A stretch of 44,056 bases of DNA, taken from Arenimonas composti TR7-09 = DSM 18010. Its GTDB lineage: Bacteria; Pseudomonadota; Gammaproteobacteria; Xanthomonadales; Xanthomonadaceae. Positions 5,324 through 37,593 of this stretch are shown in pieces (the stretch's first letter is position 1; every line of letters begins with the position of its first letter). The notes beneath the pieces are model-generated. The model was given only the letters and a program-made list of their open reading frames with translations, made no database searches and was not told the DNA's origin. The stretch covers positions 1 to 44,056 of the forward strand of contig NZ_KE384525.1 in assembly GCF_000426365.1 (NCBI RefSeq). Reading direction: 5' to 3'. The translations under genes were made by a program, and so were the position numbers.

Positions 5324-5414
<91 letters not shown>

Positions 5415-5482: not shown

Positions 5483-7510
5483 TCAGGGCGCCCCCGCCGT
5501 GCCGCCGGCGCCGCGCGGCATGAAGAAGAATTCGCCGCTTTCGTGGCCCGCATAGCGGATCGGCGCGTATTCGGGCACCTGCGGCACCGGCGAGTTCAGC
5601 GCGCTCAGCGCCAGCGAACTGGACACCTCGCGGAACAGCCGCTGCCCCTCGAGCAGGCGGTTGTTGTCCTGCAGGGTGTTCAGGAACGCCCGGGCGAAAT
5701 AGCTGTGGCGGCCGCTGCCGGTGTCCGGCACCGGCATCACGCCGCCCGAGGTCAGCGCGGTGCGCGAGCGGCCGTCGACCATCGTCTTCACCCAGCCCGC
5801 CCACTTGTCCGCCGGCTGCGAGGCGTCGAAGACCGGCACCGCCGAACGCGTCATCGTGCCGGAGTAGCAGGAGTCGGCGACCACCATCACGTGTTTCGCC
5901 GCGATCGTGTTGAGGATGTCGCTGATCGCCGCGTTCGAGATCCAGCTGCGCTCGTTGCCGGCGACGCCATCGCTCGGCACCCAGTAGCCCTGCCCCTGCG
6001 CGTCGATCTCGCCGTGGCCCGCGTAATAGATCAGCAGGTTGTCCTCGGGCTTGAGCTTCTCGCGCATCGCATTGAGGGCCGTGAGGATCTCGAGCCGGCT
6101 GCCGTTGAGCACGAGGCTGGTCTCGTAGCCGTAGCGCGAACGCAGCAGTTGGGCGACCGCGTTGGCGTCGTTCGACGCGCTCGTCAGGGTCGCGTAGTTC
6201 GTATCGCGATAGGTGTTGTTGCCGATCACCACCGCGTAGTAACGGCCCAGGTTCACGCCGCGCGGCAGCGTGCCGTCCGACGCCGGCGCGCCGTTCGGGG
6301 TGGCGGGGCCGCTGCCGGCCTGCGGCAGCAGGGTGAAATCGAGGGCCGCCTCGCTGCCGTCCTTGCCGACCGCCGCGACTTGCACCTGGGCGCCGGCCGC
6401 CGGCACCTCGACCTCGGCGCTGAAACCGCCGCCGGAACTGAGCTCGGCCGGCTTGCCGTTCACGGTCACCGCCTGGATCAGCGACGGATTGGTGATGCGG
6501 CCGACGATCCGGCGCGTGCCCGGGCCGCCCCGGTAGACCGCGGTGTTGCGGCCGCGGGTGGCGACGAACACCGGATCGAGGATCTCCAGCGTCGGCACGC
6601 CGGCGTACATCGTTGCCGCGCCGGCGCTGCCGCCGGTCTGCCGTTCCAGCGCTGCCAGCTGCGCGCGCTGAGCGCCGATCTGTTCTTCCTGCGCGACCAG
6701 CTGGCTCTCCAGCAGTCGGGTCAGGCTGTCGTCCTGGGCGGCGCGCGCTTCGGCCAGCCGCTCGCGGGTCGCGGCGAGTTCGGCATTGGCGGCGTTGAGC
6801 GCGTTGCGTCGCTGCGCGAGTTCGCGCTGCAGCTGCTCGATGCGCTGCTGCAGGGCGGCGCGTTCCGCCTCGCCCTCGGCGACCTGGCCCTCGAGGGCGG
6901 TGATGGTGTCGTCCTTCGCCTTCAGCTGCACGGCGACGACCGAGGCGTACATCAGCTCGTCCTGGATACCGGCAGCCTCGCGGTAGAGGTTCAGCGCCAT
7001 CGCCCCGTCCTGCTGCACGCCGAGGCCCTGCTCGTACAGGAAGCCGAGGTTGATCTTGGCGCGGCCATAGCCCTGGTCGGCCGCCTTGCGGAACCACTGG
7101 AAGGCCATCGCGTAGTCGGGCGCGGTGCCGAGCCCCTTCGCGTAGATCTCGCCGACGTTGTTCTGCGCTTCCGGATCCCCGGCCATCGCGCCCTCGAGCC
7201 AGACGCGCAGCGCGGTCTGGTAGTTGGCGCGGTCGTAGGCGACGTATTCACCGCCGCGGATCTCGCAGTCGGCCTGGGTCGTGCGGATCGGCCGACGCGC
7301 GGTCATGTAGGTCGCCTGGCGTCCGAGCCGGCGCAGCTGACCGGGCAGCAGGCAGTCGACGATCAGCAGATCCTCGGCATTCCTGACCGCCGCGTAGCTG
7401 GGCTGCACCGGCAGGCCGGCGACCAGCACGGTCAGGGCGGCGACGAGGGTGATGAAGGTTCGCGAAACGAGGTTCTTGGGGCGGACCGGACAAGCTTTTC
7501 GCACGCTCAT
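5483..7510 (-). CDS. Exported caspase-fold (C14) peptidase with Sel1 repeats and coiled coil
   Basis: Residues are numbered from an ATG two codons upstream (7516). I prefer the ATG at 7510 because GGAG stands 8 bases before it but only 2 bases before the upstream one. Residues 1-43 form a signal peptide (hydrophobic FITLVAALTVLVAGL, then SYAA), so the enzyme is probably periplasmic or surface-exposed. Two Sel1-type repeats occupy about 105-182. A Gln/Glu/Ala-rich coiled coil runs about 195-292. A small beta-rich domain follows at about 307-395, and the caspase domain covers about 422-650. The catalytic dyad is visible: His501 in YYAGHGE and Cys550 in VADSCYSG. Known caspase-like bacterial enzymes cut after basic or acidic residues, and the specificity here is not readable. 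It is divergent from the giant autotransporter gene. Confidence 0.88.
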   Translation of the reverse strand: MSVRKACPVRPKNLVSRTFITLVAALTVLVAGLPVQPSYAAVRNAEDLLIVDCLLPGQLRRLGRQATYMTARRPIRTTQADCEIRGGEYVAYDRANYQTALRVWLEGAMAGDPEAQNNVGEIYAKGLGTAPDYAMAFQWFRKAADQGYGRAKINLGFLYEQGLGVQQDGAMALNLYREAAGIQDELMYASVVAVQLKAKDDTITALEGQVAEGEAERAALQQRIEQLQRELAQRRNALNAANAELAATRERLAEARAAQDDSLTRLLESQLVAQEEQIGAQRAQLAALERQTGGSAGAATMYAGVPTLEILDPVFVATRGRNTAVYRGGPGTRRIVGRITNPSLIQAVTVNGKPAELSSGGGFSAEVEVPAAGAQVQVAAVGKDGSEAALDFTLLPQAGSGPATPNGAPASDGTLPRGVNLGRYYAVVIGNNTYRDTNYATLTSASNDANAVAQLLRSRYGYETSLVLNGSRLEILTALNAMREKLKPEDNLLIYYAGHGEIDAQGQGYWVPSDGVAGNERSWISNAAISDILNTIAAKHVMVVADSCYSGTMTRSAVPVFDASQPADKWAGWVKTMVDGRSRTALTSGGVMPVPDTGSGRHSYFARAFLNTLQDNNRLLEGQRLFREVSSSLALSALNSPVPQVPEYAPIRYAGHESGEFFFMPRGAGGTAGAP

Positions 7511-7617
7511 GGGCATGGCTCCGTTGGAAGCGATGCGACCGCGCGCGGTGCTTGCAGCGGCGCGTCAGCCGCTAAATACTCGCGGCGGATTTATAGCCGC
7601 AATCCTGGGGAAAAGCG

Positions 7618-10600
7618 ATGACGTTCATGAGCAGCGCGGCATTCGGCCGACGGGCGGCGATGGGTCGTGCGGCCACCTGGCGGTGGCTCGCGACTTTGAT
7701 GCTCGCGTGCATCGCAGTCTTCTGGAGCGCGCCGGGTTCGGCGCAGTCCTGCAACCTGCAGAACACGGGTGTGTCCTGGGCCTCCGGCGCACCGGGCTCA
7801 ACGGTGACCCTGAGCTTCGCCGTCGAGAACAGCCCCGCCTGCCCGGCCGGAGGCGTCGGCGGCAACATCTCGATCCCGATCGACACCACCGGCGGTGCCG
7901 TACTGACGTCCACCGGGATCATTTCCGGAACATTCGCCGGAGCCACCGCCGGTTCGACCGTCACCGTCCAGGTGAACCTGGGCACGAACTACAACGGCGC
8001 TGGCCAGGTCGTGGTCCAGTGTCTTTCGACCGCCTGTACCAACCAGGTCGTCCTGGACTTCGAAACCTATGCCGATTGGGTGCTGACCGCGATCGATCCG
8101 ACGCGAGTGATCCATGAGGGCATGGCCACCACCCTCGAGGCAACGTTCCTGAAAAACGGCTTGCCGGCGGGCGACACCGTCGAATTCCACGATTCCGCCG
8201 GTACCCTCGTCGGCACGTCGACCGCGGGCCCCAGCGGCACCGTCGATGCCTTCGTCCAGCCGCTCGGTGCGACCACGCACGTCTATACGGGCGAGACGCT
8301 GTGCAACCTGGGCACTGCCGACGGTTGCGGTGCCTTGTTGCCGGTGCAGTGGTACGTCACCGTCGAGGCGACCGGTGTTGAACCGGCCTCGCCGCTGACC
8401 TTCGATGTCGAGACCGGGGAAACGGTGTCGATGGAGGTGTTCTACGGCAGCGCCTCGTTCCCCGGCGACGACGGCACCGACATCCGGTGGACCGATCCGG
8501 TCACTTCGGTGATCGTCGAGACGGACACCGGTCTGTCTGCCTACGACTACATCCCGGCCACTCCCGGCGTTCACCAGGTCACGGCCGAGGTGGTCACCGG
8601 CTTCGGCTGTACGAACACCAATTGCACCCTCGGCACGCAGGAAACGTTCACGATCACGGCCGTCGAGCGCGCGATCGCGGTCTTCTCCGGCCAGAACCAG
8701 GCGAGTACGCCCAACACGCCGTTCCCGCTCGAACTCGAAGTGGGCGTCTCGGACGACGACGGCACCGGCGCGACCCCGGCGGCCAATGTCCAGGTCGAAT
8801 GGATCGTCGTGAACGGCACCGCCTCGCCGGCCATTTCGGTCTCGGACGGCGGCGGTGTGGCGCGCACCGTCGTCACTCCGACGGCAGTCGGTCCCGTGCA
8901 GGTCACGGCGCGCCGTCTTGACAGTGCCAAGCCCGGCGTCGCCTTCGCCAACCTGCAGGCCGATCCCATCCCGGCCGTGGTGACCTTCGTTTCCGGGCCG
9001 CTGACGCTCCAGCAGGGCACGCAGGGTCAGTACGTCGTCGAAGTCGCCGACGCCACCGGCGTGCCGATGACGTCCTTCCCGGTGACCTGGGCCGTCTCGC
9101 CTGCCACCGGCCTGAACCTGCTCAATCCGACCGGCACCGATACCGACGGCACCGGCCGCAGCACCGCGATCTTCGACGGCGTCGATGTCGACCAGTACCT
9201 GGTCGAAGCCAGCGTCGACCCCGACGGCATCCCGAACAACGGTGACGAGGGCACCGCCAGCTTCACCGTCGACGTCGTCCCGGTGCCGCTGTTCGACCAC
9301 GAGCAAGGCGACGGTCAGACCACGATCGTCGGCGTCCCCTTCGCCGACGACCTGATGGTCTATGCCTACGACAGTGCAGGCGACCCGACCGCGAACCTGC
9401 AGATCGACTGGGAACTGGTGACGGGCAACGCCACCTTCCCGGCGAGTTCCCAGACCAGTGTGGATGGCTTCGCCAGCATCGCGGTCACCCCGACCCAGAC
9501 CGGAACGCTGCAGATCCTCGCGCGGCGCAGCGACGAACCGAACCTGACGGTGCTGTTCACCCTGCAGGTGGATCCGCGGCCGGTGACGATGACGGCGGTG
9601 TCGCCGAACCCGAACCCGGGCTTCGTCGGGGTGCAGCAGCTCTATCGCGTCTACGTCGAGGAGGGCGGCGTCGCACGCCCGGCCACCACCGTTACCTGGA
9701 CCGCGGCGACGCCCGACATCACCGTCCTGAGCCCGACCAGCCAGACCAATGGCGCGGGCGAAGCCGAAGTCGCCGTCGTGCCGAACACGCCCGGCCTCCT
9801 CGCCGGCGTGCTGACTGCCAGCGTCGACCCCGACGGCGTCCCGGCCAGCGGCGACGAAGCCTCGTACATCTTCGATGCCAATATCCTGGGCGCCCCGGTG
9901 CTGACCAAGGAGGCCGGCGACAACGGCCAGGCCCTGCCCGGCGATGACTTCCCGGAACTGCAGGTCAGGACCCAGACCGGCACCTCGAACTTCTCCGCCA
10001 ACATCACCTGGACCGTCCTCAGCGGCGACGCGACCCTGTCCACGCCCGCGGTGGTCACCAGCAACCCGACCGACGGCCTCGCCCGCGCGACCATCACGGC
10101 CGGCACCAACGCCGGCCCGGTGCAGGTGGCCGCGACCTGGACCGACGTCGGCCTGCAGGTGGTCTTCGACCTCGAGGTGCGCGCCAACGCGACCACGATG
10201 AACGCGGTCAGCGACGACCCCGCCAACCTGCTGGTCGGCGTGCCGCGGATGTTCACGATCCACCTCGAGCAGAAGGGCCTGCCGGCGGCGCTGGTGCCGG
10301 TGACCTGGACGGCGGTGCCCGGCATCACGGTGACGGGCGGCGCGAGCGTCACCCTCGCGAGCGGCAATGCCAGCATGCAGATCCGCGGTGACATCGCCGG
10401 CGATTACCCGGACGGCGTCATCGCCAGCGTCGACCCCGACGGCAGGCCGGGCAGCGGCGACGAATCCGAGCACCGCTTCCACGTGATCGTCGACGTGCAG
10501 CGCGAACTCACCGTCGTTTCCGGCCAGAACCAGACCGGCATCGTCGGCGTCGCACTGGCATCGCCGCTGGTCGTGAATGCGGACGACAGCGGCACGCCGG

Positions 10601-13578
10601 CGGTGGGTCTCGCGATCGACTGGCAGGTTTCGCCGGCCGGTGCCGCCACGGTCAATCCGGGCGGCCCCACGGACGGCCTGGGCAATGCCCAGGCGAGCGT
10701 GGTACCGGGGGCGCCCGGCACGCTGACGATCGTCGCCAGCCGCAGCGATGACCCGTCGGTGCAGGTGGTCTTCACCGCCGACATCGTCGCGGCCGGCACC
10801 AGCCTGAGCGCGGTCACGCCGAATCCGGTGACGATCGGCGACGGCGTGGCCACCGTGTTCACGGTCGAGGCCACGCAGGGCGGCGCCCCGCTGGCCGGCG
10901 TGGTCGTCGACTGGAGTTCGGTGGCCGGGCTGACGATCGGCGGCGGCACCAGCCTCACCGGCGCCGATGGCCGCGCCAGCGCCACGGTCGCCGGCACGGC
11001 CCCCGGCAGCTATCCCGGCGGCGTGACCGCGGCGATCGACCCGGACGGCATCCCGGCTTCCGGCGACGAGTCCAGCGTGGCCTTCACCGTCGACGTCAGT
11101 TCGGCGCCGACGCTGCGCATCAACGGCGGCCAGGGCCAGACCGGCACGGTGGGCCAGACGCTGGCGCAGGTGCTTTCGGTGGTTGCCGAGGACAGCGGCG
11201 TGCCGGCCGCCAGCGAGCCGATCTCCTGGCAGGTGGTCACCGGCACCGCGACCCTCAATGCCAGCGGCGACACCGACGGCAACGGTGAGGCGCACGTCAG
11301 CGTGATCCCCACCTCGCCCGGCCCGCTGGTGATCACCGCCGAGCGTCTCCTGCATCCCGGGGTCATGGTCACCTTCAACCTCAATGCGACCGCGGAGGCG
11401 ACCATCACCCGAGCATTGACACCGAACCCGGCGCAGCTCGAGGTCGGCGTGCCGACGACCTTCTCGGTCCAGGTCGAACAGGGTGGCGCCCCGCTGCCGG
11501 GCGTGACGGTCACCTGGAACGCCGCACCCGGCATCCTGATCCAGAAGCTCGATACCACGACCGATACCGACGGCGAGTCCTCGGTGACGGTCACCGCGAC
11601 GACGGTCGGAAACATCGCCAATGCCCTGCAGGTCGAGGTCGATCCCGACGGCATTCCCGCGAGCGGCGACGAGTCGTCGCTGACCTTCTCGGTCACCGCG
11701 GCGACGGTGCCGACCCTGGCGATCGCCGGCGGCGACAACCAGGCGACGGTGGTGGGCAGCGCGTTCGCGGCGCCGCTCGAGGTGCTGGCCAGTGACAGCG
11801 GCACGCCGACGGCCGGCCTGGTGATCGACTGGACCTCCACCGGCAACGTCATCGTGACCGCCGGCGGCCCGACCGGGAGCGACGGCAAGGCGAGCGCCAC
11901 GGTGGTCGCCGGTTCGACGCCGGGCACCGCGACGGTCACCGCGTCCCGCAGCGACGACCCGTCGGTATCGGTGACCTTCCAGCTGACGGTTTCGCAGTTC
12001 GGCACGCTGACCGTGACCGGCGGCGACGAACAGGTGCTGCAGCCGAACGAGCCGTCGGCCCCGCTCGAGGTCACCCTGCACGACGGCGGTGGCCTGCCGG
12101 TCGCGGGTGCGGTGATCCAGTGGTCGGCTTCGTCCGGCACGCTCGCGAGCGCGACCTCGACGACCAATGCCGCCGGCGTCGCCACCAACACGGTGACGGT
12201 GTCGGTCGCGGGTGCGATCGAGGTCACCGCGACCTCGCCGATCGCCGCCGCGCCGGCGGTGTTCTCGCTGAACGGCGCGCTGGCCGGGCTGCCGGGCCTC
12301 GACCCGATCCAGCAGCAGGTCGCCATCGCCATCGACAACGCCTGCCCCGCGCTGGCGGCACTCGCCGCACCGAGCGCGGAACAGGCCGACCTGCTGGCAC
12401 GCTGCCGGGAGCTGCTCGACTCCGCCGGTGTCGATCCCGACGCGGTCGTCGGCGCGCTCGACGAGCTGATGACTCCGCTCGCCCTGGCCCAGGGTCAGGC
12501 GTCGCTGGCCGCGGTGCAGGCGCAGTTCCAGAACCTGAAGGCGCGCATCGCCGCGCTGCGCAGCGGCACGATGGGCACAAGCTTCGGTGGCCTGGCGCTC
12601 AACACGCGTTCCGGCCCGCTGTCGCTGGAGGCCCTGTCCAGCGCGTTCAGCCAGGCCGAGGATCCGGCCGCGGGCGGTGAGATCGGCAGCGATTTCAGCC
12701 GCTGGGGCTTCTTCGCCTCGGGCAACATCGGCCGCGGCGAGTTCGACGAGGGCAGCCTCGATCCGGCGTTCGACTTCGACATCGAGGGGCTGACCTTCGG
12801 CCTCGACTACCGCTACAGCGATTCGTGGATCTTCGGCGCCGCCCTCGGATACACGCGGCAGGACACCGAACTCGCCGACAACCGCGGCAGCGTCGACACC
12901 ACGGGCTGGTCGGTCTCGGCCTACACCACCTACTACAAGTCCGACTCCTGGTATGTGGACGGCGTGCTCACCTTCGGCCAGAACGATTTCGGCCTGGTGC
13001 GCAGGATCGACTACTCGCTGCCGCTGCCCGGTGGCGGCATGAGTTCGATCTCGCAGGTGGCGAAGTCGGATTCCAGCGGCGACCTGCTCTCGGCCGCGTT
13101 CACCTTCGGCCGTGACTTCAATCGCGGCGCGTTCGGCATCGGTCCCTACGGCCGTCTGCTCTATACGCGCCTGGACTTCGACGCGATCGACGAACAGCTC
13201 GCGCCGGGCGCCGGCAGTGGCCTCGGCCTGCACATCGACGAGCGCACGATCACGTCGCTGGCCTCGACCGTCGGCGCCAAGCTGACCTATACCCACAGCG
13301 CCGAGTGGGGCGTGCTGATTCCGCACTTCCAGCTCGAATGGGAGCACGAGTTCCGCGACGACCCGCAGGCGCTGCAGGCGCGCTTCCTGCACGACCCGAC
13401 CGCGACCCCGATCATCGTGAGCGGCGATGCGAGGGACAGCGACTACTTCCGGATCGGCGTCGGCCTGTCGCTGGTGCTCACCAAGGGCCGCTCGGGCTTC
13501 CTCTACTACGAACAGCTGCTCGGCCGGAACGGCGAGTCGCAGTACAACGTCGCACTCGGTCTGCGGATGGAGTTCTGA
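7618..13578 (+). CDS. Giant Ig-like-repeat autotransporter (surface adhesin-like)
   Basis: A 1986-residue type Va secretion protein. A long signal peptide (residues 1 to about 43: positive start, hydrophobic LATLMLACIAVFWSA, then GSAQ) leads to a Cys-rich head (about 44-350). About twelve Ig-like modules follow (about 358-1555): five two-domain units repeating every ~202 residues, each with a DPDG-x-P-x-x-GDE motif, then two single modules. A helical linker (about 1558-1685, with a CPAL...LLARC pair) precedes a beta-barrel translocator of about 300 residues that ends in Phe (GLRMEF). The ATG is preceded by GGGGA at good spacing. Such proteins usually mediate adhesion or biofilm formation. Ligand and function are unknown. 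The PP2C gene lies 113 bases downstream on the same strand. Confidence 0.92.
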   Translation: MTFMSSAAFGRRAAMGRAATWRWLATLMLACIAVFWSAPGSAQSCNLQNTGVSWASGAPGSTVTLSFAVENSPACPAGGVGGNISIPIDTTGGAVLTSTGIISGTFAGATAGSTVTVQVNLGTNYNGAGQVVVQCLSTACTNQVVLDFETYADWVLTAIDPTRVIHEGMATTLEATFLKNGLPAGDTVEFHDSAGTLVGTSTAGPSGTVDAFVQPLGATTHVYTGETLCNLGTADGCGALLPVQWYVTVEATGVEPASPLTFDVETGETVSMEVFYGSASFPGDDGTDIRWTDPVTSVIVETDTGLSAYDYIPATPGVHQVTAEVVTGFGCTNTNCTLGTQETFTITAVERAIAVFSGQNQASTPNTPFPLELEVGVSDDDGTGATPAANVQVEWIVVNGTASPAISVSDGGGVARTVVTPTAVGPVQVTARRLDSAKPGVAFANLQADPIPAVVTFVSGPLTLQQGTQGQYVVEVADATGVPMTSFPVTWAVSPATGLNLLNPTGTDTDGTGRSTAIFDGVDVDQYLVEASVDPDGIPNNGDEGTASFTVDVVPVPLFDHEQGDGQTTIVGVPFADDLMVYAYDSAGDPTANLQIDWELVTGNATFPASSQTSVDGFASIAVTPTQTGTLQILARRSDEPNLTVLFTLQVDPRPVTMTAVSPNPNPGFVGVQQLYRVYVEEGGVARPATTVTWTAATPDITVLSPTSQTNGAGEAEVAVVPNTPGLLAGVLTASVDPDGVPASGDEASYIFDANILGAPVLTKEAGDNGQALPGDDFPELQVRTQTGTSNFSANITWTVLSGDATLSTPAVVTSNPTDGLARATITAGTNAGPVQVAATWTDVGLQVVFDLEVRANATTMNAVSDDPANLLVGVPRMFTIHLEQKGLPAALVPVTWTAVPGITVTGGASVTLASGNASMQIRGDIAGDYPDGVIASVDPDGRPGSGDESEHRFHVIVDVQRELTVVSGQNQTGIVGVALASPLVVNADDSGTPAVGLAIDWQVSPAGAATVNPGGPTDGLGNAQASVVPGAPGTLTIVASRSDDPSVQVVFTADIVAAGTSLSAVTPNPVTIGDGVATVFTVEATQGGAPLAGVVVDWSSVAGLTIGGGTSLTGADGRASATVAGTAPGSYPGGVTAAIDPDGIPASGDESSVAFTVDVSSAPTLRINGGQGQTGTVGQTLAQVLSVVAEDSGVPAASEPISWQVVTGTATLNASGDTDGNGEAHVSVIPTSPGPLVITAERLLHPGVMVTFNLNATAEATITRALTPNPAQLEVGVPTTFSVQVEQGGAPLPGVTVTWNAAPGILIQKLDTTTDTDGESSVTVTATTVGNIANALQVEVDPDGIPASGDESSLTFSVTAATVPTLAIAGGDNQATVVGSAFAAPLEVLASDSGTPTAGLVIDWTSTGNVIVTAGGPTGSDGKASATVVAGSTPGTATVTASRSDDPSVSVTFQLTVSQFGTLTVTGGDEQVLQPNEPSAPLEVTLHDGGGLPVAGAVIQWSASSGTLASATSTTNAAGVATNTVTVSVAGAIEVTATSPIAAAPAVFSLNGALAGLPGLDPIQQQVAIAIDNACPALAALAAPSAEQADLLARCRELLDSAGVDPDAVVGALDELMTPLALAQGQASLAAVQAQFQNLKARIAALRSGTMGTSFGGLALNTRSGPLSLEALSSAFSQAEDPAAGGEIGSDFSRWGFFASGNIGRGEFDEGSLDPAFDFDIEGLTFGLDYRYSDSWIFGAALGYTRQDTELADNRGSVDTTGWSVSAYTTYYKSDSWYVDGVLTFGQNDFGLVRRIDYSLPLPGGGMSSISQVAKSDSSGDLLSAAFTFGRDFNRGAFGIGPYGRLLYTRLDFDAIDEQLAPGAGSGLGLHIDERTITSLASTVGAKLTYTHSAEWGVLIPHFQLEWEHEFRDDPQALQARFLHDPTATPIIVSGDARDSDYFRIGVGLSLVLTKGRSGFLYYEQLLGRNGESQYNVALGLRMEF
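8689..12288 (+). repeat. Coding tandem repeat: ~606-bp Ig-like double-module units
   Basis: Within the autotransporter gene, modules starting with a GxxQ motif recur at about residues 358, 565, 767, 967 and 1170, then 1371 and 1468. The DPDG motif recurs near 534, 736, 939, 1141 and 1342. The roughly 202-residue period equals about 606 bp of DNA. Copies are diverged at the amino-acid level (most similar among units 4-6) and are not exact DNA repeats. Confidence 0.8.
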
Positions 13579-13589
13579 CCGGTGCCAGT

Positions 13590-13615
13590 GCCGCGGCCGG
13601 CCCATGCCGGTCGCG
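13590..13615 (+). other. Imperfect hairpin after the autotransporter gene
   Basis: Arms CCGCGGCCGG and CCGGTCGCGG pair with one mismatch around a 6-base loop, 12 bases after the autotransporter stop. No T-run follows, so it may be a stabilising 3' structure or a weak attenuator before the PP2C gene rather than a clear terminator. Confidence 0.4.
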
Positions 13616-13691
13616 GCTTGCGGCCCGAACCAGCACGGTCCCATGATGGGAAACCCATGAGTCGCACGACCTCCGCCCTGCAGGCCACGCA

Positions 13692-14393
13692 ATGATCGAA
13701 TTCGGGCACCTCAGCCATGTCGGCCTGCGCCGCGAGCTGAACGAGGACACCTACTTCGGCGATGCCGAACTCGGCCTGTGGCTCGTCGCCGACGGCATGG
13801 GCGGTCACGAGTTCGGCGAAGTCGCCAGCGCGCTGGCCCGCGACGCGGTCGTGCGCGAGGTGCGCGCCGGCCGGTCGCTGACCGATGCGATCCGCCGCGC
13901 CGACGAGGACATCATCCGGCACAGCCGGCAGCGCGCGGAAAGCCTGCCGATGGGCACGACCGTCGTCGCGCTGCGCATCCAGGACCACCGCTTCGAACTG
14001 GCCTGGGTCGGCGACAGCCGCGCCTACCTGTGGAACGGCCAGCTGCGCCAGCTGTCGTCGGACCACAGCTATGTGCAGGAACTGATCGACCAGGGCGCGA
14101 TCACCGCCGAACAGGCGCGCGCACATCCGCACCGCAATGTCGTCACCCAGGCGCTCGGCGTCACCGATCCGCAGAACCTCAAGGTCGAGGCGCTGTCCGG
14201 CGAGCTGAAGCCGGGCCAGCAGCTGCTGCTGTGCAGCGACGGCCTCACCGAAGAAGTCGACGATGCCGGCATCGCCGCCCTGCTCGCCCGCACCGAACTG
14301 ACCGCGCAGGAATGCGTCGACCACCTCGTGTCGGCCGCACTGGACGGCGGCGGCTCCGACAACGTCACGGTGCTGTTGCTGCGCCGCGTCTGA
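13692..14393 (+). CDS. PP2C-type serine/threonine protein phosphatase
   Basis: A 233-residue metal-dependent (PPM/Stp-type) protein phosphatase that removes phosphate from Ser/Thr residues. The metal-binding motifs are all present: the N-terminal RELNEDTYF (E18, D19), VADGMGGHEFGE (D34, G35), the central WVGDSRAYL, and the C-terminal GSDNVTVLLL. Length matches the single-domain bacterial family. There is no signal peptide or membrane anchor, so it is cytoplasmic. It follows the autotransporter on the same strand and converges on the Ser/Thr kinase gene 25 bases away. The kinase is its obvious partner, with the phosphatase presumably reversing its phosphorylations. A CAGG stands 7 bases before the ATG. 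Confidence 0.95.
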   Translation: MIEFGHLSHVGLRRELNEDTYFGDAELGLWLVADGMGGHEFGEVASALARDAVVREVRAGRSLTDAIRRADEDIIRHSRQRAESLPMGTTVVALRIQDHRFELAWVGDSRAYLWNGQLRQLSSDHSYVQELIDQGAITAEQARAHPHRNVVTQALGVTDPQNLKVEALSGELKPGQQLLLCSDGLTEEVDDAGIAALLARTELTAQECVDHLVSAALDGGGSDNVTVLLLRRV

Positions 14394-14418
14394 GCGGCGC
14401 CTGGGTCGACCGGATCGC

Positions 14419-15945
14419 TCAGGTGGCCGGCGGCGCCGGCGGCAGCGCCGGTGCTTCGCCACGATCACCCCGACCGGCGATGTCGACCAGCTGCAGCAGG
14501 TATTCGTCGGCAGCATCGATGTCCAGGCCCTTGCGCGCGAGCTGGCCACAGGCCGACCACAGGGTGCGCTCGCAGGCCTCGTAGGCGTTGCGGCGATAGA
14601 AGGCGACCAGGGCGGCGATGCCGGCGCGGGCACGCGCGTTCTCCGGATCGAGCACCAGCGCCTGGCGGAAATAGCCGAGCGCGCTGTCGTCCGGCGGCCA
14701 GTCGAGCTTGCGGCCGTAGTCGTTGTTGCTCTTGTCGGTGCCGTAGGCGAGCAGGGCTTCGCCGGCATTCAGCGCCTGGTCGATCTGCGCCTGCTTGTCG
14801 GCATCGACCGGCACCGGCATCTCGAAGCCTTCCGGCAGCCGGCCGTCGACCGGCGGCGGGGTCGGGTTCGTGACGACCGGGCGCGGCGGTTCGGGCGTCG
14901 GCACCGGTTGCGGCGAGGGGGACAGCAGCCACCAGGCGCCCAGGGCGATCACCAGCAGGCCGGCGGCGCCGGCCGCCGGAATCACCCAGCCCGGACGCTG
15001 CGTCTGACCGCCGCGGGCGCTGATGCGGGTGCGCTGCTGGGTCGCGGCGCCACCGGCGATGCGGTTGCCGCTGCCCGGCTTGCGCTGGGTGGTTTCCTGC
15101 AGCACGGCGCCCTGCGGCGCGGCGTCGACGAGCTTGTGCAGCGCGTCGATGAAGGCCTTGCCGTTGTTGTAGCGCTGCCCGGCTTCCTTGGCCATCAGGC
15201 CGTCGACCAGCGGCTGCAGCCAGGCGTAGCGGTCCGACAGTTTCGGCACCGGATGGGTCACGTGCATCAGCGCGACCGTGAACGGATCGCCCGACTGGTA
15301 GGGCGGATGGCCCTCGAGCATCTCGTAGAGCACGGTGCCGAGGCTGTAGAGGTCGGAGCGGCCATCGACCGGCTCGCCGCGCGCCTGCTCCGGACTCATG
15401 TAGTCAGGCGTGCCGATCGAGGCGCCGGCGACGGTGGAACTGTTGCTGCCGTCCATCGCCTTGGCGATGCCGAAGTCGGCGAGCACGACCCGGCCGTCGT
15501 TGCGGAACAGCACGTTGCCCGGCTTGACGTCGCGGTGCACGAAGCCCTTCTCGTGCGCGAAGTCGAGGCCATTGGCGATGTCGGAAACGATGTCGAGGAT
15601 GTGCGCGACGCTGAGCCCGCCCTCGGTGATGCGGTCCTTCAGCGTGCCGCCGGGGATGTACTCGGCCGCGAGGTAGTAGACGCCGGCGTGGCTGCCGATG
15701 TCGTAGACCGTGACCAGGTTCGGGTGCTGCAGCTTCGCGGTGATCTTGCCTTCGATCAGGAAGCGGCTGGCGAACTCGGAATTGGCCGCGAGCGCCGGCG
15801 ACATCACCTTCAGCGCGACCTCGCGCTCGAGCGATTCCTGCACCGCGAGGAAAACCGAGGCCATGCCGCCCTCGCCGATCGGGCGAAGGATCTTGTAGCC
15901 GGGGATGTTGATGTCGACCGAAGTCAGCAGGACGGTGGCGTTCAA
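14419..15945 (-). CDS. Transmembrane serine/threonine protein kinase with periplasmic TPR-like domain
   Basis: A 508-residue Hanks-type (PknB-like) kinase. The kinase domain covers about residues 14-275, with the glycine loop GEGGMASV (24-31), ATP-binding lysine K46, catalytic HRDVKPGN (D139) and DFG (157-159). An activation loop rich in Ser/Thr ends GTPDYMSPEQ. A basic linker precedes one membrane span (about 319-341), then a Pro-rich stretch and a C-terminal helical, TPR-like domain (about 365-490) with two cysteines, probably periplasmic. The topology fits a sensor that relays envelope signals inward. The start is TTG, preceded by GAGG at 5-base spacing. No ATG or GTG lies nearby before the glycine loop. 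It faces the PP2C gene. Confidence 0.94.
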   Translation of the reverse strand: MNATVLLTSVDINIPGYKILRPIGEGGMASVFLAVQESLEREVALKVMSPALAANSEFASRFLIEGKITAKLQHPNLVTVYDIGSHAGVYYLAAEYIPGGTLKDRITEGGLSVAHILDIVSDIANGLDFAHEKGFVHRDVKPGNVLFRNDGRVVLADFGIAKAMDGSNSSTVAGASIGTPDYMSPEQARGEPVDGRSDLYSLGTVLYEMLEGHPPYQSGDPFTVALMHVTHPVPKLSDRYAWLQPLVDGLMAKEAGQRYNNGKAFIDALHKLVDAAPQGAVLQETTQRKPGSGNRIAGGAATQQRTRISARGGQTQRPGWVIPAAGAAGLLVIALGAWWLLSPSPQPVPTPEPPRPVVTNPTPPPVDGRLPEGFEMPVPVDADKQAQIDQALNAGEALLAYGTDKSNNDYGRKLDWPPDDSALGYFRQALVLDPENARARAGIAALVAFYRRNAYEACERTLWSACGQLARKGLDIDAADEYLLQLVDIAGRGDRGEAPALPPAPPAT

Positions 15946-36023: not shown

Positions 36024-36392
36024 ATGCAGATCAGCGATGCCGAGAGCGTGGTCATGGAAGTCCTGTGGCGGACCAGTCCGCGCGGTTCCGACGAAATCAT
36101 CGCCGAGCTCGCCCGCGAGCCCGGCTGGCATGCCTCGACGGTGAAGACGCTGCTCAACCGGCTGGTGCGCAAGGGCGCGCTGGCGGTGGAGCGGGACGGG
36201 CGGCGCTTCCTGTACACGCCGGTACTGCGGCGTGCCGCCTGGGTCGCGGGCCAGAGCCGCGGCCTGCTCGACCGGTTGTTCGACGGCCGCCTGGCGCCGC
36301 TGGTCGCCCACCTCGCCGACGCCCGCGCCCTCAGCGCCGACGACATCGCCGAACTCAAGCGTCTCGTGGAGAACCTCGATGACGAGCACTGA
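36024..36392 (+). CDS. BlaI/MecI/CopY-family transcriptional repressor
   Basis: A 122-residue winged-helix repressor starting MQISDAESVVMEVLWRTSPR, with the recognition helix in HASTVKTLLNRLVRKGAL and the wing VERDGRRFLYTPVL. The C-terminal half is the dimerisation region and contains the site that its partner peptidase would be expected to cut. An upstream in-frame ATG at 35997 would add nine residues but has no ribosome-binding site and coincides with the predicted transcription start. The chosen ATG has GACGAG 8 bases before it. The stop overlaps the next gene by 14 bases. The regulon is unknown, and no beta-lactamase gene is nearby. Confidence 0.92.
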   Translation: MQISDAESVVMEVLWRTSPRGSDEIIAELAREPGWHASTVKTLLNRLVRKGALAVERDGRRFLYTPVLRRAAWVAGQSRGLLDRLFDGRLAPLVAHLADARALSADDIAELKRLVENLDDEH

Positions 36393-37593
36393 GCTGCTGT
36401 GCGAACTGCTCGAAGCCACCCTCGCCTCGTCGCTGGCCGCGCTGGCGGTGCTGGCGCTGCGCCGGCCGCTGCGCGACTTCGCCGGTCCCGGCGCCGCCGC
36501 CCTCGCCTGGGCCGCGGTGCCGCTGGCGGTGCTGGCGGTGTGGCTGCCGGCGCGGGCGGCCGGCCCCGGCGCCGCCGGGACCGCCGGTGCGATCACCGAC
36601 GCCGTGTTCGCGCCGGTGATTCAAGGCGCCGGCGCGACGTCCGCGGGGCCCTGGCTGCTGGCGCTGTGGGCGAGCGGCGCCGCGGCGGGGGCCCTCGTTT
36701 TCGCGCTGCGGCAGCGCCGGTTCCTGCGTGGGCTGCGCCCGATCGAGGGCACGCCCTGGCTGGCCAGCCCGGCCGGCGGTCCGGCGGTGGTCGGCCTGCT
36801 GCGTCCGCGCATCGTGCTGCCGGCGGATTTCCGCCTGCGCTACGACGCCGGCGAACTGACGCTCGTGCTCGCCCACGAGTGCATGCACCTGCGCCGCGGC
36901 GACCTGCCGGCGCAGGCGCTCGCGACGGTCCTGCGCTGCCTGTTCTGGTTCAACCCGCTGCTCGTCCGGGCCGAACGCCGCTTCCGCGAGGACATCGAAC
37001 TGGCCTGCGACGCCGCGGTGCTGCGGCAGAACCCACGCTCGCGCCGCCGCTACGGCAGCGCGATGTTGAAGACCCATCTGGCCGATGTCGGCCTCCCGCT
37101 CGCCTGCCACTGGCAGTCGGGCCATTCCCTCAAGGAGAGAATCCAGATGCTCGAACGTCCCCTCGCTTCCTCCCGGCGCCGGCGAACCGCCGCCGTCGCG
37201 GTTTCCGTCGCGCTGATCGCGTCCGCCGGCCTGGCCTGGGCCGCGCAACCGGCAGCGCCAGCCGCCGACGCAACCGCAGGTCCCGCGCAGATCGCGGCCG
37301 ATGAAGATGTGCTCACCGCGCCGGCCTATCCCGCGGCGGCCGTACGCGACCACATCAGCGGCCAGGTGCTGCTGGAGATCCTGGTCGGCGAAGACGGCGT
37401 ACCGCGCGAGGTGAAGGTCGTGAGTTCCTCACCGGAAGGCGTATTCGACGCCGCGGCGGTCGAGGCGGCGCGGAACTGGCGCTTCAATGCCGGCCGCAAC
37501 GGTGCCGGCGGCGAGAAGGTCGAGGGCTGGATCCGCGTGCCGGTGCGCTTCGAGGCCGAGGACCAGAATGCCGGGAGCCCCGGCACCACCTGA
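36379..37593 (+). CDS. BlaR1-like M56 peptidase with C-terminal TonB-like domain
   Basis: A 404-residue inner-membrane zinc peptidase. Three or four hydrophobic spans lie in about 10-120 and one more near 270-290. The M56 catalytic motif HECMH occurs near residue 171, followed by a second-shell EDIELACDAAVL helix. After the last span a Pro/Ala linker leads to a periplasmic TonB C-terminal-type domain (about 315-395, with YPAAAVRDHISGQVLL, GEDGVPREVKVVSSSPEG and AAVEAARNWRF). BlaR1 normally ends in a penicillin-binding sensor domain, so here that domain is replaced by a TonB-like one. It overlaps the BlaI-type gene by 14 bases and should inactivate that repressor on signal. The signal is unknown. 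Confidence 0.9.
   Translation: MTSTELLCELLEATLASSLAALAVLALRRPLRDFAGPGAAALAWAAVPLAVLAVWLPARAAGPGAAGTAGAITDAVFAPVIQGAGATSAGPWLLALWASGAAAGALVFALRQRRFLRGLRPIEGTPWLASPAGGPAVVGLLRPRIVLPADFRLRYDAGELTLVLAHECMHLRRGDLPAQALATVLRCLFWFNPLLVRAERRFREDIELACDAAVLRQNPRSRRRYGSAMLKTHLADVGLPLACHWQSGHSLKERIQMLERPLASSRRRRTAAVAVSVALIASAGLAWAAQPAAPAADATAGPAQIAADEDVLTAPAYPAAAVRDHISGQVLLEILVGEDGVPREVKVVSSSPEGVFDAAAVEAARNWRFNAGRNGAGGEKVEGWIRVPVRFEAEDQNAGSPGTT

Follow-up and report, generated by a model that had tools for sequence, protein, structure and literature searches.

Three genes at one locus of Arenimonas composti, coding for a C14 caspase-fold peptidase, a giant autotransporter and a membrane Ser/Thr kinase with a tetratricopeptide repeat (TPR)-like tail, very probably form a functional unit. 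They lie in a 44,056-nucleotide stretch of DNA (contig NZ_KE384525.1, positions 1 to 44,056 of the forward strand; hereafter the window), together with the gene for a PP2C phosphatase that is an older resident of the dnaQ neighbourhood and is not specific to the module. The original prediction, made from the sequence alone, had described four adjacent genes for a caspase, an autotransporter, a PP2C phosphatase and a kinase. Open reading frame checks together with Pfam and NCBIfam searches bore this out, with all four genes intact:

5483..7516, minus strand: C14 caspase-fold peptidase with N-terminal export segment, 677 aa
5867..5869, minus strand: codon of catalytic Cys550 (ADSCYSG), invariant in a 56-row alignment, catalytic role by family knowledge
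6014..6016, minus strand: codon of catalytic His501 (YYAGHG), invariant in the same 56-row alignment, catalytic role by family knowledge
7517..7617, no strand: divergent intergenic region between caspase and autotransporter, 101 bases
7618..13578, plus strand: giant autotransporter, 1986 aa (Pfam)
12544..12561, plus strand: autotransporter residues 1643-1648 (R-I-A-A-L-R), candidate basic cleavage site (alignment, model)
12709..13512, plus strand: autotransporter beta-domain, PF03797 (Pfam profile)
13692..14393, plus strand: PP2C phosphatase, Stp1/IreP-like, 233 aa (Pfam, NCBIfam)
14419..15945, minus strand: membrane Hanks-type Ser/Thr kinase with predicted periplasmic TPR-like tail, 508 aa, TTG start
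14476..14808, minus strand: TPR-like tail of the kinase (profile), common to caspase-adjacent kinases of other lineages

Kinase and phosphatase genes converge across 25 bases (14394-14418), as had been claimed. The divergent gap between caspase and autotransporter had been put at 107 bases, a figure that holds if the second in-frame ATG of the caspase gene (7510) is used; the first ATG gives 101.

The strongest evidence for shared function is a linkage that has been kept or re-formed through many rearrangements. We entered 96 loci, of which 89 had a callable caspase and 70 were left after dropping those ≥85% identical; this set combines loci from named genomes with loci from a first survey, its genes were called by a simple home-made caller, and 45 of its loci have three called genes on each side. 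The 79 named loci come from the best 80 of 500 confirmed matches, a selection biased towards the query's relatives; their records are mostly metagenome-assembled genomes, with phylum reach read from record titles. Among these best 80 matches, caspase loci occur in records of Gammaproteobacteria, Rhodocyclaceae, Nitrospira, a deltaproteobacterium and Desulfosarcinaceae, and by record title relatives are met as far away as Beta- and Deltaproteobacteria and Nitrospira. The three genes on either side of the caspase include an autotransporter barrel in 36 of the 45 loci and a kinase in 33; PP2C is among them in 19 and an alpha/beta-hydrolase in 7. Counts from the A. composti genome, where a genome-wide profile search found 8 kinase, 6 autotransporter-barrel and 1 C14 matches, put the chance that any one gene has a kinase within three genes at ~1.6% and that it has a barrel there at 1.2%; the expectation among 45 loci is ~0.6 barrels and 0.7-1.4 kinases. 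A local background set, of 29 genes only, gave no match, and the sole empty locus among the 45 (L104) has a kinase-like neighbour below the 80-bit limit.

Relative to 67 caspases, the autotransporter gene is upstream and divergent in 22 cases, upstream and codirectional in 20, downstream in 6 and not found in 19, and for the kinase gene the corresponding counts are 22 (upstream, codirectional), 11 (downstream, opposed), 6 (other placements) and 28 (not found). On the best caspase tree, which is a quick tree, this amounts to at least 5 changes of arrangement for the autotransporter and at least 10 for the kinase. The idea that the four families co-occur thus stood for caspase, autotransporter and kinase, whose linkage extends over genera, families and phyla while their order changes, but not for PP2C.

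Presence and absence within Xanthomonadales follow the same pattern. In a survey of 61 genomes, with subfamily thresholds of E 1e-60 or better for the caspase and E 3e-40 or better for the autotransporter, the caspase was found in 34 genomes and the autotransporter in the same 34, the best autotransporter match in the other 27 being 9.1e-12. Across 299 genomes of the order, 73 carry the caspase and 77 the autotransporter subfamily, with 73 shared; the autotransporter occurs without the caspase in 4 of 226 genomes, three of which are <85% complete. The Fisher value computed for this association takes no account of kinship between the genomes. The two genes lie within 8 kb of each other in 60 of the 73 carriers, ~30 kb apart in one and on different contigs in 12. 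A control gene, TssB of the type VI secretion system (T6SS), was found in 78 of the 299 genomes and overlapped with the caspase in 10, against 19 expected (hand count).

The caspase is present in 19 of 27 genomes of the genus at E 1e-60 or better, and the four-gene order and orientation are kept in 14 of the 15 caspase loci fetched from the family; at the fifteenth (G019) the contig ends within the PP2C gene, and in G011 and G003 some frames of the locus are broken. Cultured A. oryziterrae (L089) and A. donghaensis (L153) also carry the block. Three genomes from other families (G040, G049, G058) have the same order; G038 has its kinase at another place. Caspase, autotransporter and kinase are jointly missing at the site in five relatives (G017, G025, G028, G031, G034), all of which keep PP2C beside dnaQ or DUF6165. 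Because only PP2C stays in these caspase-less genomes, we regard it as the older resident and the other three genes as behaving as a unit; some PP2C match is found in 58 of the 61 genomes, probably a paralogue in the most distant ones. The block of four that had been proposed therefore loses its phosphatase, for whose position a chance neighbourhood is likely. Coincidence was rejected for the caspase, autotransporter and kinase, given their joint absence in the five relatives, their co-occurrence and their changing gene orders.

The original prediction had also held that related genomes with the adhesin or the caspase alone, and with kinase and phosphatase lying elsewhere, would mark the neighbourhood as coincidental, and such a separation was found in part. 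The caspase-autotransporter pairs of G039, G045 and G050 and the dnaQ-linked kinase-PP2C pairs of these genomes lie on separate contigs, and in G059 the two pairs are ~20 kb apart. The tailed kinase remains by dnaQ in all four genomes, and a different, short-tailed kinase adjoins the caspase in G050 and G059. Separately, six small genomes of the genus (1.5-2.2 Mb; G001, G006, G007, G013, G014, G024) gave no autotransporter or kinase match, and no C14-type match at the strength used.

The caspase matches the Pfam families Peptidase_C14 (1.3e-18) and Sel1 and comprises, in order, an N-terminal hydrophobic stretch, a conserved region running from VDCLLPGQ to IRGGEY, Sel1 repeats, a coiled coil, a beta-rich domain and the C14 domain. 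Its export to the periplasm is predicted; the hydrophobic N-terminal segment was present in 67 of 67 caspases checked and a lipobox-like motif in 31 of the 67. Both the caspase fold and the His-Cys pair of C14 caspase/metacaspase-like peptidases are present, and the catalytic pair (H501, C550) as well as two acidic residues (D450, D548) are invariant in 56 aligned caspases. A profile search against the PDB aligned D450 with the Asp of MALT1 in LKAPLVDVYEL; the C14 part, when searched there as a single sequence, gave no match. With D450 and D548 as invariant candidate S1 residues, the enzyme would be Arg/Lys-specific in the manner of metacaspases, which prefer a basic P1 residue and, in TbMCA2, have two Asp in the potential pocket (PMC4357240).

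In its C14 fold, His-Cys pair and acidic residues at S1 positions, the protein resembles prokaryotic metacaspases and orthocaspases, where Sel1, present in 6.0% of 671 surveyed sequences, is one of the four most frequent additional domains (PMC3501461); the present subfamily differs in adding the invariant N-terminal region. The word 'autotransporter' is absent from the main text of that survey, in which we found no kinase-autotransporter locus of this sort described. Exported caspase-like domains have been proposed as processors of surface or secreted proteins and polymorphic toxins (PMC3482391). In those cases the peptidase is usually a domain of the processed protein, whereas here it has a gene of its own, next to those for an autotransporter and a kinase.

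The autotransporter (Big_1, 4.8e-56; Autotransporter, PF03797, 1.3e-53) has a putative signal peptide, recognised by eye, followed by Big_1 Ig-like repeats, a helical linker and a barrel, for which twelve long strands were counted in a predicted model, as in classical autotransporters. In the linker-barrel model (mean predicted local distance difference test score 85.9), an R-x4-R motif closes the linker helix and is followed by model residues 65-103, of very low confidence, and then by the barrel, a position that would suit a protease. The first Arg (R57) is conserved in 33 of 33 rows of the autotransporter alignment (A4) and the second (R62) in 32 of 33. Twenty further caspase-linked barrels follow the strict motif pattern in 9 cases and have a plain R-x4-R in the region in 16, of which 5 have their first match a few residues before the helix-end pair. 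For comparison we took 7 other autotransporters, 3 from the A. composti genome and 4 from caspase-less genomes. The profile did not match two of them, and the five that it matched look, by eye, like esterase autotransporters, four being without R-x4-R and one (L198) having it at another position. Many partner autotransporters outside Xanthomonadales are short (~440-900 residues), and the giant Ig-repeat passenger is therefore not essential to the gene set.

The kinase (Pkinase, 3e-48) has one hydrophobic segment after the catalytic domain, from residue 319, a predicted topology consistent with the earlier claim of a periplasm-facing C-terminus. Its TPR-like tail (E 2.1e-39), matched weakly by one other of the 8 kinases of the genome (4.8e-6), is common to caspase-adjacent kinases in Xanthomonadales, Methylococcales, Thiodiazotropha, Hahella and Ketobacter. 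Among the 299 genomes, the 25 best-scoring for the tail (E 1.3e-25 or better) are all caspase carriers; at E 1e-14 the profile matches 163 genomes and is thus not specific, so that only the 25 strongest are informative, and we rejected the tail as a genome-level marker. Assignment as a PASTA/Stk1 kinase was likewise rejected: NF033483 matches residues 17-281 only, under its cut-off, and no PASTA family matches at E 0.001. The phosphatase matches PP2C_2 (4.8e-15) and, slightly under its cut-off, the NCBIfam Stp1/IreP model (7.6e-66).

How the three proteins might work together is suggested by these features. The original prediction had put forward, as one model, a kinase that senses the state of the envelope and a caspase that processes the adhesin or another surface protein, and both roles stand as hypotheses. 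The caspase, exported to the periplasm and probably lipid-anchored in many relatives, would be active as a protease cutting after Arg or Lys, and would have the autotransporter as its substrate, the likeliest cutting point being the basic helix end that separates surface passenger from barrel, so that the surface protein is shed or remodelled. The inner-membrane kinase may be coupled to the caspase via helical repeats, Sel1 in the caspase and the TPR-like tail in the kinase, and would either read the proteolytic event or control it, with the neighbouring PP2C resetting the kinase. Substrate, cleavage site, direction of the signal and output are all inferred. The particular mechanism, cleavage of the autotransporter coupled to the kinase, is tentative, and we lean slightly against it; the combination of a three-gene module with periplasmic proteolysis, taken as a whole, we hold to be evenly balanced against its rivals.

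The closest parallel in design is the Lap system, in which a periplasmic protease, LapG, cleaves the surface adhesin LapA and the inner-membrane receptor LapD links cytoplasmic state to cleavage (PMC3032553). The arrangement proposed here likewise has a surface adhesin, a periplasmic protease that cuts it and an inner-membrane transducer. It differs in its protease, which is of C14 caspase fold and not of LapG type, in its adhesin, an autotransporter for which cleavage is so far a proposal, and in its transducer, a Ser/Thr kinase in place of a cyclic di-GMP receptor. Among eight proteins, those of the four genes and four encoded nearby, none is a LapD-type HAMP-GGDEF-EAL receptor; this search did not extend to the remainder of the genome. 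No description of the caspase-autotransporter-kinase set was found in the openly licensed literature, by which absence from print is not established; one article names a caspase family protein, but only in a list of hydrolases (PMC8929069).

A second comparison is with the T6SS threonine-phosphorylation pathway (PpkA, PppA, Fha, TagF), which shares with the present locus a membrane Ser/Thr kinase and a PP2C. In some relatives from Pseudomonadales and Methylococcales, kinase and PP2C sit with TagF, FHA and T6SS core genes; in A. composti the partners are instead a caspase and an autotransporter, and the genome gave no match to TssB (PF05591), other T6SS genes not having been searched. T6SS membership of the window genes was rejected on this ground. 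A T6SS protein was present in the fetched stretch at 8 of the 70 non-redundant loci, and FHA alone in three more: L090 has TagF with PP2C, L101 TssA/B/C/E/F, L132 VgrG near the caspase, L114 FHA/TssK/L/M/TagF, and L121 TagF/TssM/L/K/J near the caspase. Pfam confirmed T6SS domains in L090, L101, L114, L132 and L151. One can reasonably suppose a caspase-kinase core that different lineages have wired to different partners, either the T6SS or an autotransporter. We also observed the caspase, mostly with the kinase, among T6SS genes at nine loci (L090, L092, L101, L114, L118, L120, L121, L132, L151), from records of Pseudomonadales, Methylococcales and unclassified Gammaproteobacteria, and a TagF N-terminal domain fused to a PP2C phosphatase at L114:20088-21893.

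These loci lend some weight to another explanation, an envelope-damage alarm akin to T6SS threonine phosphorylation, in which the caspase would be a periplasmic sensor or activator upstream of the kinase, the autotransporter a displayed sensor or an output and not a substrate, and the kinase-PP2C pair would phosphorylate cytoplasmic targets, the same caspase and kinase driving the T6SS where present. Pseudomonas aeruginosa indeed builds its H1-T6SS upon breach of the outer membrane (PMC11881912), and caspase and kinase stand among T6SS genes at L090, L101, L114, L121 and L132. We consider such an alarm unlikely, since A. composti gave no TssB match, TssB and caspase overlap less than expected in the order, and the alarm leaves unexplained both the tight autotransporter linkage and the conserved protease dyad. 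If the caspase were instead a constitutive maturation or quality-control protease for the autotransporter subfamily, with the kinase co-located for other reasons, one would understand its co-occurrence with the autotransporter in 73 of 73 carriers and the 16 of 70 loci where, of the families sought, the autotransporter alone lies within three genes. That the kinase is present without barrel, PP2C or hydrolase within three genes at 9 of 70 loci, and has kept its adjacency through its changes of arrangement, makes this quite improbable.

A neighbourhood held together by descent alone, already weakened, is very unlikely: the four-gene order is inherited within Arenimonas and near families, and the tree used offers just 4-5 independent presence/absence contrasts, but further families and phyla have other orders and orientations, and caspase-less relatives lack the three genes jointly. 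Least credible of all is a cell-death or anti-phage defence system with the caspase as effector. PADLOC models do match, at 4.2e-9 for the caspase fold and at 1.3e-82 for the kinase domain (PD-T4-6, a single-gene kinase system), but these matches are confined to the catalytic domains (caspase 427-591, kinase 13-279), the locus is syntenic in a genus where most genomes carry the caspase, and the hydrophobic N-terminal segment found in every caspase checked should place the enzyme away from cytoplasmic targets.

Returning to the module and its proposed proteolysis, several observations weigh against them. Some caspases have no recognised neighbour within three genes (19 of 67 for the autotransporter, 28 of 67 for the kinase), in part through contig ends. 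A tree-aware test (PP2C tree, 49 genomes) had just four well-supported independent contrasts and was for that reason non-significant, though all four were concordant (p 0.125). The caspase-adjacent kinases of L071, L074, L102, L117, L122, L142 and L147 gave no tail match, 48 of the 73 caspase carriers fall outside the 25 strong tail genomes, and the training sequences of both profiles, barrel and tail, were largely caspase-linked. R-x4-R is missing from 4 of the 20 further caspase-linked barrels and may be structural; because classical autotransporters such as pertactin carry a similar motif, we did not adopt it as an established cleavage site. A second autotransporter of the subfamily is encoded in the A. 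composti genome without an adjacent caspase (G000:C1:100653-102557, locus L170; 46% identity over the matched part), the sole C14 match lying elsewhere. Cleavage, binding and phosphorylation are themselves all inferred.

Other features of the loci were recorded. The four genes are flanked by genes for a lipopolysaccharide kinase, a GT9 heptosyltransferase, DUF6165, tRNA-Ser(CGA), dnaQ and rnhA; the tRNA gene (window 5324-5414) is directly 3' of the caspase gene, before DUF6165, and is a possible integration site. A BlaR1-type M56 peptidase fused to a TonB C-terminal domain is encoded at window 36232-37593. In other genomes, a lipoprotein-like alpha/beta hydrolase (L116:4503-5303 and homologues) lies within three genes of the caspase at 11 of the 70 loci, and a protein of 383-478 residues lies between caspase and kinase at five (L090:11970-13121, L094:7226-8407 and homologues). 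Neither the L090 copy of the latter nor a 1495-residue open frame adjoining the caspase at L157:12865-17349 had a Pfam match at E 0.01.

Discussion of caspase homologues in bacteria has centred on cell death. Here the subfamily carries an export segment, its active site is conserved, and in several phyla it is associated with a surface protein and a membrane kinase; this suggests a part in envelope proteolysis instead, and the small size of the locus, in cultured environmental bacteria, makes this amenable to testing. It is possible, if rather doubtful, that the genes represent an envelope system, widespread but so far undescribed, whose periplasmic caspase serves as a regulated autotransporter protease in crosstalk with a Hanks-type kinase via repeats, and which is wired to the T6SS in some lineages. 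If so, the caspase would join the known bacterial ways of regulating periplasmic adhesin cutting and might provide an input to T6SS control.

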